Assembly (NCBI GenBank): GCA_003612335.1
Contig: RAYO01000005.1
Span: 1-64,000, forward strand
Direction of reading: 5' to 3'
Source of the DNA: a bacterium 1xD42-67
GTDB lineage: Bacteria > Bacillota > Clostridia > Oscillospirales > Oscillospiraceae
Length of the DNA: 64,000 nucleotides
Below the pieces are notes generated by a model. It searched no databases. It had not been told where the DNA came from and saw nothing but the letters and a program-made list of their open reading frames with translations. Both the position numbers and the translations under genes were made by a program. Shown here piece by piece: positions 6,569 to 34,993 of the stretch. Numbering within the stretch: position 1 is the first letter of the stretch; every line of letters begins with the position of its first letter.

Positions 6569-6762
6569 ATCGATATCCAAAATCATTCCACGGGCCGGAG
6601 GCTACTCCATCATGGTAGTCCCGGCACCGCACAGAAGGAGGAAAAAGCTACCGCTGCGGCTTGCGGTGCGGCAGTGTGGAGACCTGTCGTAACGTTCCAA
6701 AGGTCCTGCTCCTTTGGGGCGAGGTGGAAACTGGCGGAGGCCCTTCCACCAGAGCCGGACAT
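6569..6762 (+). promoter_or_regulatory. Hairpin-rich leader before the MsmK-type ATPase gene
   Basis: These 194 bases hold no recognised gene. Three short inverted repeats are visible: GCACCGC/GCGGTGC (6624-6630 with 6663-6669, enclosing an AAGGAGG that has no start codon), CCAAAGG/CCTTTGG (6697-6703 with 6711-6717) and GGTGGAA/TTCCACC (6723-6729 with 6744-6750). The last loop holds GGAGG, the nearest ribosome-site-like sequence to ATG 6763. This may be a translational control region; that is inference only. Confidence 0.35.
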
Positions 6763-7956
6763 ATGGCGACTTTGAATCTGAGGAACATCACGAAGATCTA
6801 CCCCCACAGCGGCGGGGAGAAGAAGGCCAAGAAAAAGAAGAGCGACAGCGGAGAGAAGAAGGTCAACCTCCAGATCACCGATCAGGGCGTGGTGGCCGTC
6901 CAGAAGTTCGATCTGGATATCGCCGACAAGGAGTTCATCGTGCTGGTGGGTCCCTCGGGCTGCGGCAAGTCCACCACCCTGCGGATGGTGGCCGGCCTGG
7001 AGGAGATCTCCGGCGGCGAGCTGCTCATCGACGGCAAGCTGATGAACGATGTGGAGCCGAAAAACCGGGACATCGCCATGGTGTTCCAGTCCTACGCCCT
7101 GTATCCCCACATGACGGTGTTCGAGAACATGGCTTTCCCGCTTCGCCTGCGCAAGGTCCCGGCAAACGAGATCGAGCGCCGGGTGAAAGAGGCGGCGGAG
7201 ATCCTGGACATCACCCAGTATCTGGACCGGAAGCCCAAGGCGCTGTCCGGCGGCCAGCGGCAGCGTGTGGCCATCGGCCGGGCCATCGTCCGGGAGCCCA
7301 AGGTGCTGCTCATGGATGAGCCCCTGTCCAACCTGGATGCCAAGCTCCGCAACCAGATGCGGGCCGAGATCATCAAGCTGCGCCAGAAGATCGACACCAC
7401 CTTCATCTACGTCACCCACGACCAGACCGAGGCCATGACCCTGGGCGACCGGATCGTGATCATGAAGGACGGATTCATCCAGCAGATCGGCACCCCCCAA
7501 GAGGTCTTCGACCACCCCGCCAACATCTTCGTGGCCGGCTTCATCGGGATGCCCCAGATGAACTTCTTCGATGCCAAGCTGCTCAGCGAGGGCGGGAAAT
7601 ACTTCGTCACGGTGGGCGGCTGCAAGGTGGAGCTGTCCGCCGAGAAACAGAAGAATCTGGCCGCGCACAAGATCTCCGCCCAGGACATCACCCTTGGGGT
7701 CCGTCCCAGCCACATGGTGCTGGCCAAGCAGGCGGGGAACACCCTCTCTGCCACTGTGGAGGTCTCGGAGATGATGGGCAGCGAGGTCCATTTCCACGCC
7801 AACGCCGAGGGGCGGGACGTGGTGGTCATCGTCCCCACCATGAACCCGGACGGCAGCCACATCGACACCTTCACCACCGGAGACAAGCTGGAGCTCACCT
7901 TCAGCGGCAACGTCTGCCATGTCTTTGGCAAGGACGGCAGGAATCTGGAGTATTGA
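6763..7956 (+). CDS. Sugar ABC transporter ATPase, MsmK/UgpC type
   Basis: This is the cytoplasmic ATPase subunit, 397 aa from ATG 6763. Walker A is GPSGCGKST (near residue 63), the Q-loop is MVFQSYALYPHM, the ABC signature is LSGGQRQRVAIGRA (near 160), Walker B is VLLMDEPLSNLDA (near 181) and the switch is YVTHDQTEAM. The C-terminal ~130 residues form the regulatory TOBE/OB region of the MalK class. Unusually, residues 16-42 are a Lys-rich insertion between the first strand and the Walker A strand. The start is not secure: no good ribosome site precedes 6763, and a TTG at 6661 would add 34 residues. It probably energises the importer upstream and perhaps other sugar importers. Confidence 0.92.
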   Translation: MATLNLRNITKIYPHSGGEKKAKKKKSDSGEKKVNLQITDQGVVAVQKFDLDIADKEFIVLVGPSGCGKSTTLRMVAGLEEISGGELLIDGKLMNDVEPKNRDIAMVFQSYALYPHMTVFENMAFPLRLRKVPANEIERRVKEAAEILDITQYLDRKPKALSGGQRQRVAIGRAIVREPKVLLMDEPLSNLDAKLRNQMRAEIIKLRQKIDTTFIYVTHDQTEAMTLGDRIVIMKDGFIQQIGTPQEVFDHPANIFVAGFIGMPQMNFFDAKLLSEGGKYFVTVGGCKVELSAEKQKNLAAHKISAQDITLGVRPSHMVLAKQAGNTLSATVEVSEMMGSEVHFHANAEGRDVVVIVPTMNPDGSHIDTFTTGDKLELTFSGNVCHVFGKDGRNLEY

Positions 7957-29787: not shown

Positions 29788-30879
29788 TCACCGCCCCTGG
29801 ACCATGGGACAGACGGGACTGAACCGGCGGGCCGTCTCCTCCCCCCGGAGCAGGCGCAGGCCGCCCAGGGCCAGGGCCTCCATCTCGTTCTCTCCGGGGA
29901 GGACCACCACCCGGCACAGGGCGTGGAGGTATTCGATGACCATCCCGGTGAGCATCTTGGAGTTGGCCAGCCCGCCGGTGAGGATGACGGCGTCGATCAG
30001 CTCCTTGAAGCAGGCCAGCATGGTGCCGATCCCCTTGGCGATCTGGAGGGCCTGGGCCTGGTAGACCAGGGCGGCCCACTCGTCCCCCTGGGCGATCCGC
30101 CGCTCCACCTCCTGGCAGTCGTGGGTGCCCAGCAGGGCGGACATGCCCCCCTCGCCCCGGAGCTTCTTGGTCATCTCCGCCTTGGTGTATCTGCCCGAAT
30201 AGCACATGTCCAGCACATAGAGCATGTTCAGGCTGCCTCCCCGGTCGGGGGAGAAGGGGCCGGCGTCGTCAGACACCGAGTCGATGATCCGCCCGTGGCT
30301 GTGGGCGGACACCGAGATCCCGCCCCCCAGATGGGCCACCACCAGGTTCATGTCCTCATACCTGCGGCCCATGGCCTGGGCGTATTTGTGGCTGGTGGCC
30401 CTGGCGTTGAGGACATGGCAGAAGCTGGTGCGGGTGACCTCCTTGAAGCCGGTGACCCGGGCCTCGGGGAGGAGCTCGTCGCTGGTGACGGCGTCGTAGA
30501 TATAGGCGGGGATGCCCAGGGGCTCGGCGAATTCCCGGGCCATCAGCCCCCCTAGGTTGGAGGCGTGGTCGAAGACGGTGTGGTGGAGCAGGCAGTCGGT
30601 GAGGGCCTCGTCCACCAGGTAGCCCCCGGAGACGATATTGGGGATGATGCCCCCCCGGCCTACCACGGCGGACAGGCCGGACAGGTCGTAGCCCTCCAGA
30701 GCCAGCCAGCTGCGCACCATGCCCACCCGGTAGTCCAGCTGGTCGCTGAGGACGGGGTAGGGGGCCAGGTCCGGGTTGGTGTGGACCATGCTCCGGACCA
30801 TGAGAGGGCGCTCGTCCCGGTAGACCGCCGCCTTGGTGCTGGTGGAGCCGGGGTTCAGGACCAAGATATCGTATGACAT
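29788..30879 (-). CDS. buk: Butyrate kinase
   Basis: This enzyme converts butyryl phosphate and ADP to butyrate and ATP, 363 aa. It is an acetokinase-superfamily protein: ILVLNPGSTSTKAAVY (N-terminal phosphate loop), VGRGGIIPNIVSGGY, NARATSHKYA and VVAHLGGGISVSAHSHGRI near residue 184 separate butyrate from acetate kinase. It follows ptb with a nine-base gap. The pair gives terminal butyrate formation with ATP yield, but a branched-chain acyl substrate is also possible. Confidence 0.92.
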   Translation of the reverse strand: MSYDILVLNPGSTSTKAAVYRDERPLMVRSMVHTNPDLAPYPVLSDQLDYRVGMVRSWLALEGYDLSGLSAVVGRGGIIPNIVSGGYLVDEALTDCLLHHTVFDHASNLGGLMAREFAEPLGIPAYIYDAVTSDELLPEARVTGFKEVTRTSFCHVLNARATSHKYAQAMGRRYEDMNLVVAHLGGGISVSAHSHGRIIDSVSDDAGPFSPDRGGSLNMLYVLDMCYSGRYTKAEMTKKLRGEGGMSALLGTHDCQEVERRIAQGDEWAALVYQAQALQIAKGIGTMLACFKELIDAVILTGGLANSKMLTGMVIEYLHALCRVVVLPGENEMEALALGGLRLLRGEETARRFSPVCPMVQGR

Positions 30880-30888
30880 AGTGACCTC

Positions 30889-31788
30889 CTAATCCATGGC
30901 CGCGCAGATCATGATCGACCAGTATTTCTCCGCCGCCGTGGCCCCCCGGGAGTTGACGGTGACAGGGACCTTCGCCCCCAGGACCACCCCGGCCATCTCC
31001 CCGCCGGCCAGGCCGTAGAGGGATTTGCCCAGCAGGTTGCCCGCCGCGATGGACGGGGCCAGGAGGATGTCTGCGTCCCCCGCCACCGGGCTGCGGTAGC
31101 CCTTCACCTGGGCGGCCTCTCGGTCGGTGGCCAGGTCCAGGGCGATCGGGCCCTCCACGATGCAGGGGCCGAACTCCCCCCGGTCCCCCTCCGCCTTCAG
31201 GGCGGCGGCGTCCGCCGTCTCGGGCATGGCGGGGCTCACCGTCTCCACGGCGCACAGGGCCGCCGCCTTGGGACGGTCATAGCCCAGGAAGCGGCAGAAG
31301 TCCAGGGCGTTCTTCAAGATGTGGCGCTTCTGCTCCAGGTCAGGGGCCACCACCATGCCGCCGTCGGTGACGTAGAGGAGCTTGTGGTAGCTGGGCACGT
31401 CCAGGATGGCCACGTGGGACATGACCTGGCTGCTCCGGATGCCTGTCTCCTTGTTCACCACCGCCTTGAGGAGGGCGCCGGTGGGGAGCATCCCCTTGAT
31501 GAGCATGGCTCCCTCTCCGGCGCGGATGAGGTCCACCGCCCGGGCGGCGCACTGGGCGTCGTCCCCGGCGTCTGCCACCTGGGCGAGGTCCAGGTCCTCA
31601 CCCAGGTCTTGGGCGATGGACAGGATCTCCTCCCGGCGGCCCACCAGGGTGGGGAGGATGAGGCCGTCCCGCCGGGCGGCGAAGACCGCCTGGAGGGTGT
31701 GTTCGTCATGGGCGGCGGCCACCACTGCCCGTCTGGGGGGCAGGCCGTGGAGCTGGGCCTTCAGGGCGGGGAAGCTGGGGATGACCAT
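30889..31788 (-). CDS. ptb: Phosphate butyryltransferase
   Basis: This 299-aa enzyme transfers butyryl from CoA to phosphate. Features are VVAAAHDEHTLQAVF near the N-terminus, the central LIKGMLPTGALLKAVVNKETGIR and SHVAILDVPSYHKLLYVTD, and the C-terminal DILLAPSIAAGNLLGKSLYG and VTVNSRGATAAEKYWSI, all typical of the PTA/PTB family with the PTB pattern. It is the first gene of the ptb-buk operon, with GGAGG before ATG 31788. Confidence 0.92.
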   Translation of the reverse strand: MVIPSFPALKAQLHGLPPRRAVVAAAHDEHTLQAVFAARRDGLILPTLVGRREEILSIAQDLGEDLDLAQVADAGDDAQCAARAVDLIRAGEGAMLIKGMLPTGALLKAVVNKETGIRSSQVMSHVAILDVPSYHKLLYVTDGGMVVAPDLEQKRHILKNALDFCRFLGYDRPKAAALCAVETVSPAMPETADAAALKAEGDRGEFGPCIVEGPIALDLATDREAAQVKGYRSPVAGDADILLAPSIAAGNLLGKSLYGLAGGEMAGVVLGAKVPVTVNSRGATAAEKYWSIMICAAMD

Positions 31789-32861: not shown

Positions 32862-32890
32862 TTGACATCTCCGCGAGTTCATGGTAGGAT
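32862..32890 (+). promoter_or_regulatory. Promoter of riboswitch-controlled transporter
   Basis: TTGACA (32862-32867) and TAGGAT (32885-32890) are 17 bases apart, 70 bases before the lysine aptamer. Confidence 0.83.
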
Positions 32891-32960
32891 ATCCGTGAAA
32901 CAGACAAAGACACGTATCTGCCGGCAGGGGGCTCCTCTGGGGCGGAGCGGTCCAGATATA

Positions 32961-33119
32961 GGATAGAGGCGCGGCGCTCATGCGTACTGCGGGACAAGGC
33001 CAGGCAAGCTGTCCCGGGGGAGAGGGTGCGCCGCCGAAGGTCACACGGCTTGCCTGAGCCGCGGGACCTGGGGCGTGAGAGAAGATCTTACGGACTGTCA
33101 CGAAAGTGGAGCGCTATCC
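32961..33119 (+). ncRNA. Lysine riboswitch aptamer (L box)
   Basis: Conserved L-box blocks appear in order: AGAGGCGCGGCGCTCA after the first strand of P1, GGGGGAGAGGGTGCGCCGCC then GAAGG, ACCTGGGGCGTGAG, ATCTTACGGACTGTCA, and GTGGAGCGCTATCC. P1 closes by GGATAG (32961-32966) with CTATCC (33114-33119). These are the core nucleotides of the five-helix lysine aptamer. The downstream gene is an NhaC-family transporter, a known class of lysine riboswitch target. Confidence 0.9.
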
Positions 33120-33155
33120 AGAGGTCCCCGGCCAAGGGCTGGGGGCGTCCGGTCT

Positions 33156-33195
33156 TGCCGTGGAGCGCGTTCTGCGCACCACGGCATCTATTTTT
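33156..33195 (+). terminator. Lysine riboswitch terminator
   Basis: TGCCGTGG (33156-33163) pairs with CCACGGCA (33179-33186), with an inner GCGC pair; TCTATTTTT follows. GTGGAGCGC occurs both in the 3' strand of aptamer P1 (33106-33114) and in the 5' arm of this hairpin. The 3' arm can therefore pair with either: an antiterminator when lysine is absent, a terminator when lysine holds P1 closed. Confidence 0.83.
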
Positions 33196-33241
33196 GCGCA
33201 GACGGGGGCGTGTGTCCCCCAAAAATCAGGAGGGAAAACGT

Positions 33242-34993
33242 ATGAGAAAGAGAAGATCCGCCGGCCTGCGGACCGTCATCCTGGCGATGATGCTCCTGGC
33301 CATGGTCTGCACCGCCTTCGCGGCGGGGGGAGACCCCACCGAGCTGACCGGCACCAAGTACATCGAGTGCCCCGACTGCGGGACGATGGGCGTGGTCCTG
33401 TCTGACGAGGGACAGGCTGTCCCCTGCGGGACCTGCGCAGACAGCGGCTATGTGGGCTATATCCAGTCGCCCAGCGGCTTTTTCAACAGCCCCATGTCTC
33501 TGCTGCCCCCAGTCATCGCCATCGCCCTGGCCCTGATCACCAAGGAGGTCTATTCCTCTCTGTTCATCGGGATCCTGGTGGGCGGCCTGCTCTATTCCAA
33601 CTTCTCCTTCGAGGGGACCGTCCTCCACGCCTTCAGCGACGGGATCGTGGCCTCTCTGTCCGACGGCTATAATGTGGGCATCCTGATCTTCCTGGTGATC
33701 CTGGGCGTGATGGTCTGCCTGATGAACAAGGCGGGGGGCTCCGCCGCCTTCGGCCGCTGGGCCAAGAAGAACATCAAGTCCCGGGCGGGGGTCCAGCTGG
33801 CCACCATCGTGCTGGGCTGCCTGATCTTCATCGACGACTATTTCAACTGCCTCACGGTGGGCTCGGTCATGCGCCCCGTCACCGACAAGCAGAACGTCTC
33901 CCGGGCCAAGCTGGCCTACCTGATCGACGCCACCGCCGCCCCCATCTGCATCATCGCCCCGATCTCCTCCTGGGCCGCCGCCGTGGCCTCCTTCGCCGAG
34001 GACGGCCAGGGCCTGAATCTGTTCATCAAGGCCATCCCCTACAACTTCTACGCCCTGCTCACCGTGGTGATGATGGTGGGCATGGTGATGATGAAGGCGG
34101 AGTTCGGCCCCATGGCCAGGTTCGAGAAGAACGCCCTGGAGAAGGGGGATCTCTTCTCCGGCTCCAACCCCTACGCCATGCTGGATGAGGAGAACGACGA
34201 GTCCAAGGGCATCGTCCTGGACCTGGTGCTGCCCATCCTGGTGCTGGTGGTCGCCTGCGTCATCGGTATGATCTACTCCGGCGGCTTCTTCTCCGGCGAG
34301 AACTTCGTGGACGCCTTCTCCAACTCCGACGCCTCTGTGGGCCTGATGCTGGGCTCCGCCTTCGGCCTGCTCTTCGCCTTCGTCTACTACTTCGTCCGCC
34401 GGTCCATGTCCTTCAAGGAGATGATGGGCTGCATCCCCGAGGGCTTCAAGGCCATGGTGCCCGCCATCCTGATCCTCACCTTCGCCTGGTCCCTCAAGGG
34501 CATGACTGATTCCCTGGGCGCCAAGTATTTCGTCCGCGACCTGGTGCGCTCCGCCTCCGGGATCCAGATGCTGCTGCCCGTCATCGTCTTCGTGGTGGGC
34601 TGCCTGCTGGCCTTCGCCACCGGCACCTCCTGGGGCACCTTCGGCATCCTGATCCCCATCGTCCAGAACGTGTTCACCGACACGCCCGATGCCCCCCTGG
34701 TCATCATCTGCGTCTCTGCCTGCATGGCCGGCGCCGTCTGCGGCGACCACTGCTCTCCCATCTCTGACACCACCATCATGGCCTCTGCCGGCGCCCAGTG
34801 CGACCACGTGAACCACGTGTCCACTCAGCTGCCCTATGCCATCTCCTGCGCGGTGATCGCCGGTATCACGTATCTGGCCGCCGGCATCCTGGTGACCGTG
34901 GGCGCGCCTGGGATCGTCTCCCTGCCCATCGGCGTCGTGCTGATGCTGGGCTTCCTCTTCGCGGTGAAGAGCCGCAGAGTGGATGCCGCCTGA
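33242..34993 (+). CDS. NhaC-family transporter, probable lysine importer
   Basis: This 583-aa membrane protein is of the NhaC antiporter superfamily. Residues 1-27 look like a signal peptide or first helix (RTVILAMMLLAMVCTAFAAGG). Residues 36-66 carry CPDCGTMGVV and CGTCADSGYVG, a DnaJ-like pair of CxxC motifs, on what should be the outside. At least ten membrane segments follow, with FIDDYFNCLTVGSVMRPV and the GDHCSPISDTTIMAS signature of NhaC proteins. AGGAGGG precedes ATG 33242. The lysine riboswitch upstream indicates the substrate is lysine rather than sodium/proton exchange alone (inference). Confidence 0.88.
   Translation: MRKRRSAGLRTVILAMMLLAMVCTAFAAGGDPTELTGTKYIECPDCGTMGVVLSDEGQAVPCGTCADSGYVGYIQSPSGFFNSPMSLLPPVIAIALALITKEVYSSLFIGILVGGLLYSNFSFEGTVLHAFSDGIVASLSDGYNVGILIFLVILGVMVCLMNKAGGSAAFGRWAKKNIKSRAGVQLATIVLGCLIFIDDYFNCLTVGSVMRPVTDKQNVSRAKLAYLIDATAAPICIIAPISSWAAAVASFAEDGQGLNLFIKAIPYNFYALLTVVMMVGMVMMKAEFGPMARFEKNALEKGDLFSGSNPYAMLDEENDESKGIVLDLVLPILVLVVACVIGMIYSGGFFSGENFVDAFSNSDASVGLMLGSAFGLLFAFVYYFVRRSMSFKEMMGCIPEGFKAMVPAILILTFAWSLKGMTDSLGAKYFVRDLVRSASGIQMLLPVIVFVVGCLLAFATGTSWGTFGILIPIVQNVFTDTPDAPLVIICVSACMAGAVCGDHCSPISDTTIMASAGAQCDHVNHVSTQLPYAISCAVIAGITYLAAGILVTVGAPGIVSLPIGVVLMLGFLFAVKSRRVDAA

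Follow-up and report, generated by a model that had tools for sequence, protein, structure and literature searches.

In the 64,000-nucleotide stretch of DNA from the bacterium 1xD42-67 that was analyzed here (the window), a lysine riboswitch with an intrinsic terminator lies upstream of a gene for an NhaC-superfamily transporter, and this arrangement is real and of a known kind. We interpret it as a transcriptional lysine OFF switch, in which the 5′ arm of the terminator forms the antiterminator, controlling a lysW-type transporter that most likely imports lysine, and we place the probability of this interpretation at roughly 75%. A lysine riboswitch in front of an NhaC-superfamily gene is already in print from other bacteria, where lysine transport was proposed. 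As a clean example of this known regulatory pair, the window makes it easier to test what riboswitch-controlled NhaC proteins carry. All coordinates are positions in the window, and the features described lie on its forward (+) strand unless stated otherwise.

Lysine aptamer and intrinsic terminator

The Rfam lysine riboswitch model RF00168 matched positions 32956-33124 with a score of 84.4 bits, well above the gathering cut-off of 30 (E 1.2e-20), and the alignment extended over model positions 1-182, the whole model length. A preliminary description of this DNA had reported that the L-box core was present and had proposed a search with this model, and the full-length match bears out the first of these. 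Such a match predicts that the aptamer binds lysine. Two copies of RF00168 were found genome-wide (93.2 and 84.4 bits), both on one contig, with the 93.2-bit riboswitch located upstream of genes whose translations read as asd, dapA, and dapB.

In the Rfam structure line, the P1 5′ strand (GGATAG) is at 32961-32966 and the P5 hairpin (TCAC-GAAA-GTGG) at 33098-33109, of which 33106-33109 is the 3′ strand, followed by J5/1 (33110-33113) and the P1 3′ strand (CTATCC, 33114-33119). The GTGG of P5 is the first part of an element that is copied downstream. This element, the nonamer GTGGAGCGC at 33106, covers the P5 3′ strand and J5/1 and extends one base into the P1 3′ strand. The preliminary description had correctly noticed that it is repeated in the 5′ arm of the terminator, with exact copies at 33106-33114 and 33160-33168 (and GCGCACCAC at 33174), but had taken 33106-33114 for the P1 3′ strand, which by the structure line is an error.

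The intrinsic terminator hairpin occupies 33156-33186 (-22.4 kcal/mol), with the U-rich tail TCTATTTTT directly behind it at 33187-33195. When the stretch behind the aptamer was shuffled 10 times, no terminator-like hairpin of this stability arose. Given the E-value of the aptamer and a z-score of -4.2 for the fold of 33105-33202, the aptamer and the fold are beyond chance. A plain promoter and terminator scanner run on the window did not list the terminator at 33156-33186. A possible sigma-70-type promoter (TTGACA-17-TAGGAT, 10 of 12 matches) at 32862-32890 is a weak candidate, as one was found against 0.5 expected from shuffles. The transporter gene starts at the ATG at 33242, behind a Shine-Dalgarno-like AGGAGGG at 33228-33234 that was read directly from the sequence; the end of the gene at 34993 had been given correctly in the preliminary description, and only its start was moved to this ATG.

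Between the terminator and the ribosome-binding site, at 33196-33220, lies a GCGC and then a possible hairpin whose loop is of the GUGUG type. GCGC was found behind the U-rich tail in 19 of 19 aligned sequences (the window and 18 relatives, chosen from 23 listed, with L021, L022, L024, and L013 omitted), and L021, which was not aligned, is without it. After GCGC, most sequences have a possible hairpin with a variable stem and a UGUGUG-like loop, ahead of the ribosome-binding site. L005, L006, and L013 carry some 60 inserted bases between terminator and ribosome-binding site; the insertion folds as a long imperfect hairpin and resembles a small mobile or repeat element.

For the comparison of leaders, the best 80 of 394 encoding stretches from relatives were kept. 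A motif search placed the 3′ edge of the aptamer in the window and in 70 of these 80; the 10 without the motif were dropped, as were L027 and L056, in which it was misplaced, so that 69 leaders remained, one from the window and 68 from relatives. A terminator-like hairpin with a T-rich tail was present in all 69 (mean -18.0 kcal/mol), that is, behind the aptamer of the window and of 68 of 68 parsed relatives, as found with a lenient hairpin finder that also detected some hairpin in 418 of 690 shuffles behind the aptamer, although a hairpin matching the leader's own in stability appeared in only 31 of the 690. The leader terminators are of three kinds, the CCATGG-/CCGTGG-type of the window, a GGGCGCT-type, and a GTCATGAC-type, and across the 69 leaders one aptamer edge is met by three different terminator sequences. 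The three classes held 30, 14, and 25 leaders in the folding run without penalty and 27, 16, and 26 in the penalty run (both described below), the sorting rule having changed between them. Base pairs were counted in 20 look-alike leaders of the 30 in the window's class under the first set of labels, with L029, L034, L037, L038, L047, L055, L060, L064, L072, and L082 omitted. In these 20, five terminator pairs were changed on both sides, a number reached by none of 500 shuffles.

Predicted switching between P1 and the antiterminator

In the proposed mechanism, when no lysine is present the nascent 5′ arm and loop of the terminator (33161-33175) would pair with 33106-33120, and this pairing would break P1 and keep the 5′ arm off the 3′ arm, so that polymerase reads through. 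Bound lysine would instead hold P1 and P5 and leave the 5′ arm free, allowing the terminator at 33156-33186 to form and silencing the gene. The 5′ half of the putative antiterminator (33106-33120) comprises the P5 3′ strand, J5/1, and the P1 3′ strand, and its 3′ half (33161-33175) comprises the terminator 5′ arm, the loop, and the first two bases of the 3′ arm, as derived from duplex and folding models. In the growing transcript, 11 antiterminator pairs were predicted with the end at 33173-33174, and 13, around a 2x2 loop, with the end at 33175-33178. Equilibrium folding of growing transcripts gave P1 a probability of 0.98 at 33155, 0.01 at 33173, and 0.00 at 33176, with a return to 0.97 at 33185, where the terminator is complete. 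In the model, P1 can coexist with the terminator but not with the antiterminator, and the 5′-arm antiterminator displaces P1 before transcription reaches the 3′ arm; an OFF switch is predicted on both grounds, and the mutual exclusion is weaker in folds without the penalty. Since the complete terminator wins at equilibrium in the window, read-through would have to be kinetic. In the same model P1 dropped again later, to 0.05 at 33195 and 0.04 at 33202, where its partner was the U-rich tail, and stood at 0.38 at 33241, a late loss that counts against a simple reading of the switch. An ON switch, or a gene encoding a lysine exporter, would recall the lysine riboswitches before catabolic genes that a passage of PMC5584792 describes as positive regulators, but the predicted fit of P1 with the terminator and its exclusion of the antiterminator make either very improbable.

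The lysC riboswitch of Bacillus subtilis is a transcriptional OFF switch with an intrinsic terminator, in which P1 competes with the antiterminator. The window resembles it in its aptamer, its terminator, and the opposition of P1 and antiterminator, and differs in that the predicted pairing reaches further into the aptamer, to the P5 3′ strand and J5/1. This agrees with a passage of PMC13273304, in which the lysine aptamer-platform overlap is described as larger than in B. subtilis lysC.

The preliminary description had offered a transcriptional OFF switch in which the antiterminator is formed by the aptamer element at 33106-33114, taken as the P1 3′ strand, and the terminator 3′ arm at 33174-33182. 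The OFF logic and the intrinsic terminator are retained here, in the folding model and in the sequence, respectively, but the antiterminator as written is not. That the 3′ arm can pair with either partner is correct as far as pairing goes, as its duplex with the aptamer element reaches -14.4 kcal/mol, the pairing consists of standard pairs in 98.8% of cells in the 20 leaders of the class, and in 24 of 69 leaders the 3′ arm pairs at least as strongly as the 5′ arm. As an antiterminator, however, it is slightly surpassed in the window by the pairing of the 5′ arm and loop (-15.1 kcal/mol), it can form only once the 5′ arm is present, and it ends 4 nt before the U-rich tail, thus resembling a terminator. 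In addition, an exact copy of at least 8 nt of the element was confined to the window's terminator class (10 of 30 leaders, against 0 of 14 and 0 of 25 in the other two), so the copy is not a general mechanism; in the window, the palindromic GCGC means that a copy of the aptamer element can also be the partner of that element. We therefore regard an antiterminator made by the 3′ arm as decidedly unlikely.

The comparison with relatives favors the 5′ arm less uniformly. By plain duplex energy, the 5′ arm is the preferred partner in only 45 of 69 leaders, and 5% or fewer of 200 shuffled arms pair as well in 13 of 69, with the window at 6%. The 11 antiterminator pairs of the 5′ arm and loop are kept in 96.2% of cells in the 20 leaders, slightly fewer than the 98.8% of the 3′-arm pairing, so conservation does not decide between the two. 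Covariation cannot lend support to the antiterminator because its aptamer side is invariant in these leaders. We infer the choice of the 5′ arm from which segment is transcribed first and from where the U-rich tail lies.

An attempt to identify the antiterminator in equilibrium folds without constraints did not succeed in many relatives. In the window's class, at least four antiterminator pairs formed in only 8 of 30 leaders (window included), and in the other two classes they formed in 7 of 14 and 25 of 25; in 10 of 13 displayed leaders, the 5′ arm paired with the 5′ side of the aptamer. For this reason we used a run in which the interior of the aptamer was protected by a penalty of 15 kcal/mol. 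Under the penalty, at least four antiterminator pairs were predicted at the loop or 3 nt later in 69 of 69 leaders (means of 8.9 pairs at the loop and 10.6 at +3 nt, against 3.8 at the loop for shuffled arms). The mean number of P1 pairs went from 5.7 to 0.8 (+3 nt) and back to 5.7, with 3.9 at the loop for shuffled arms, and 34 of 69 leaders beat at least 19 of 20 shuffles. Among the 57 leaders with at least three P1 pairs before the 5′ arm, P1 fell below half in 54 and remained above half in L042, L047, and L067; at least three P1 pairs were predicted again at the full terminator in 55 of the 57.

The transporter and its cysteine-rich N-terminal module

The gene at 33242-34993 encodes a 583-amino-acid protein with a PF03553 domain (183.2 bits, cut-off 23), as expected from the NhaC-type transporter named in the preliminary description. 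Its score against Tet(35) (NF000013) was 194.2 bits, under the curated cut-off of 750, and the NCBIfam ArcD model scored far below its cut-off. One of the proteins with 99% identity to it carries the name Lawsonibacter sp. The predicted structure (pLDDT 83.4, pTM 0.80) has the fold of INDY-, ArsB-, and MleN-like carriers of the IT superfamily, although identity to these and other members is 7-13% among the ten best rows and their substrates differ; one structure match, 9a59, is itself an integrative model. A PDB sequence search with the protein alone returned no relative, and a search with profile A2 gave only six matches (E 0.12 to 0.99), all to unrelated proteins.

In having a lysine riboswitch immediately before a gene of the NhaC superfamily, the locus resembles lysW (COG1757), which a passage of PMC5584792 counts among lysine transporter genes, with a widespread riboswitch and a proposed role in transport, and CD1655 of Clostridioides difficile, mentioned in PMC11477304. 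The PF03553 domain and the upstream riboswitch are the two features by which we call the gene lysW-type. Here, as for lysW, lysine transport is proposed from the riboswitch, and import of lysine is plausible and the most likely role of the protein. The alpha-aminoadipate carrier protein (Pfam PF21344) goes by the name LysW as well; it is not known to be related to the lysW of the NhaC superfamily.

The main competing view of the protein is that of a true Na+/H+ (or K+/H+) antiporter, serving pH homeostasis at low lysine rather than carrying lysine. The family name of PF03553 suggests it, and a pH role for NhaC genes that follow a lysine riboswitch has been discussed both in a passage of PMC5584792 and in PMC11477304, a review that in the passage concerned calls the function of NhaC behind the lysine riboswitch unknown. 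The NhaC-type protein 0846 of Staphylococcus aureus has K+:H+ antiport activity at alkaline pH according to a preprint cited in PMC10817146, but the same article describes 0846 as a main histidine transporter from uptake assays. The window protein scored 42.3 bits against NhaC sensu stricto (TIGR00931), far under the equivalog cut-off of 370, and its predicted fold is like that of the substrate carriers MleN, ArsB, and INDY, a likeness of fold, not of function. On balance, we consider an antiporter unlikely and lysine import the better reading. Tyr T-boxes also precede NhaC genes, as reported in part of PMC2494555.

The part of this protein that a transporter specialist would not expect is its cysteine-rich N-terminal module. 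A signal-peptide-like N-terminus (residues 1-28, ending in AFAA; 33242-33325), read from the sequence, is followed by a zinc-ribbon-like module at residues 40-75 (33359-33466) with the cysteine pairs C43-C46 and C62-C65, which matched Zn_ribbon_5 at E 0.002 with 18.3 bits, under the curated Pfam cut-off of 29.3. Each of the four cysteines was present in at least 90% of 48 sequences, and strands were predicted at residues 40-43, 51-53, 59-61, and 73-75. The signal-like segment, together with positive charges in alternate loops as judged by eye, suggests that the module is outside the cell. In the best 80 of 394 relatives, with the starts as chosen, two CxxC motifs were counted in 56, four in 19, one in 1, and none in 4; L031, counted as having none, is an artefact of start choice and has the module. 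In 11 of 57 members, DnaJ_CXXCXGXG gave a match with E up to 1 (best 2.4e-6); the model was absent from the match table of the window protein. More distant homologues whose N-termini were printed have acidic linkers, short segments, or none.

This signal-peptide-like N-terminus with a CxxC...CxxC module may set the window protein apart from published lysW proteins and CD1655, and a literature search on NhaC with a zinc ribbon found no paper. As a speculative and rather doubtful extension, transport by the lysine importer of this clade could be gated by an extracytoplasmic metal-binding module that responds to zinc or redox state or serves as a docking site for a partner. If this were true, lysine uptake would be under two controls, one exerted on the RNA by lysine and the other on the protein by metal or redox state.

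Distribution and genome context

Rfam placed a lysine riboswitch upstream of the transporter in 78 of the best 80 of 394 relatives (16/16, 15/17, 16/16, 16/16, and 15/15 in the five batches), with no RF00168 match upstream in L057 and L075. Across 60 genomes of the class, a lysine riboswitch was found in 42, a count obtained with stricter filters that may lose weak ones, and a homologue of the transporter (E 1e-20 or better) in 24. A manual comparison of the two tables showed 14 of the 31 homologue matches to be immediately preceded by a same-strand lysine riboswitch; these are found in 14 of the 24 genomes.

In the genome of 1xD42-67, PF03553 gave 10 match rows on 7 contigs. Lysine catabolism was considered as a reason for the switch and rejected, as far as the lysine 2,3-aminomutase pathway is concerned, since the genome has no match to lysine 2,3-aminomutase (TIGR03820). 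Near the transporter, on the opposite (-) strand at 29788-31788, a butyrate kinase gene (TIGR02707, 405.9 bits, cut-off 289.1) lies beside a phosphate acetyl/butyryltransferase-like gene. Elsewhere in the window, a malK-I RNA motif (RF03069, 131.7 bits, cut-off 60.3) at 6587-6768 is directly upstream of an open reading frame, extending to 7956, which resembles a MalK/UgpC-type ABC ATPase. Other riboswitches were also seen near the transporter loci of relatives, namely a molybdenum/tungsten riboswitch in L082 (8404-8528, + strand, 44.6 bits) and a TPP riboswitch in L078 (7377-7492, - strand, 62.8 bits).
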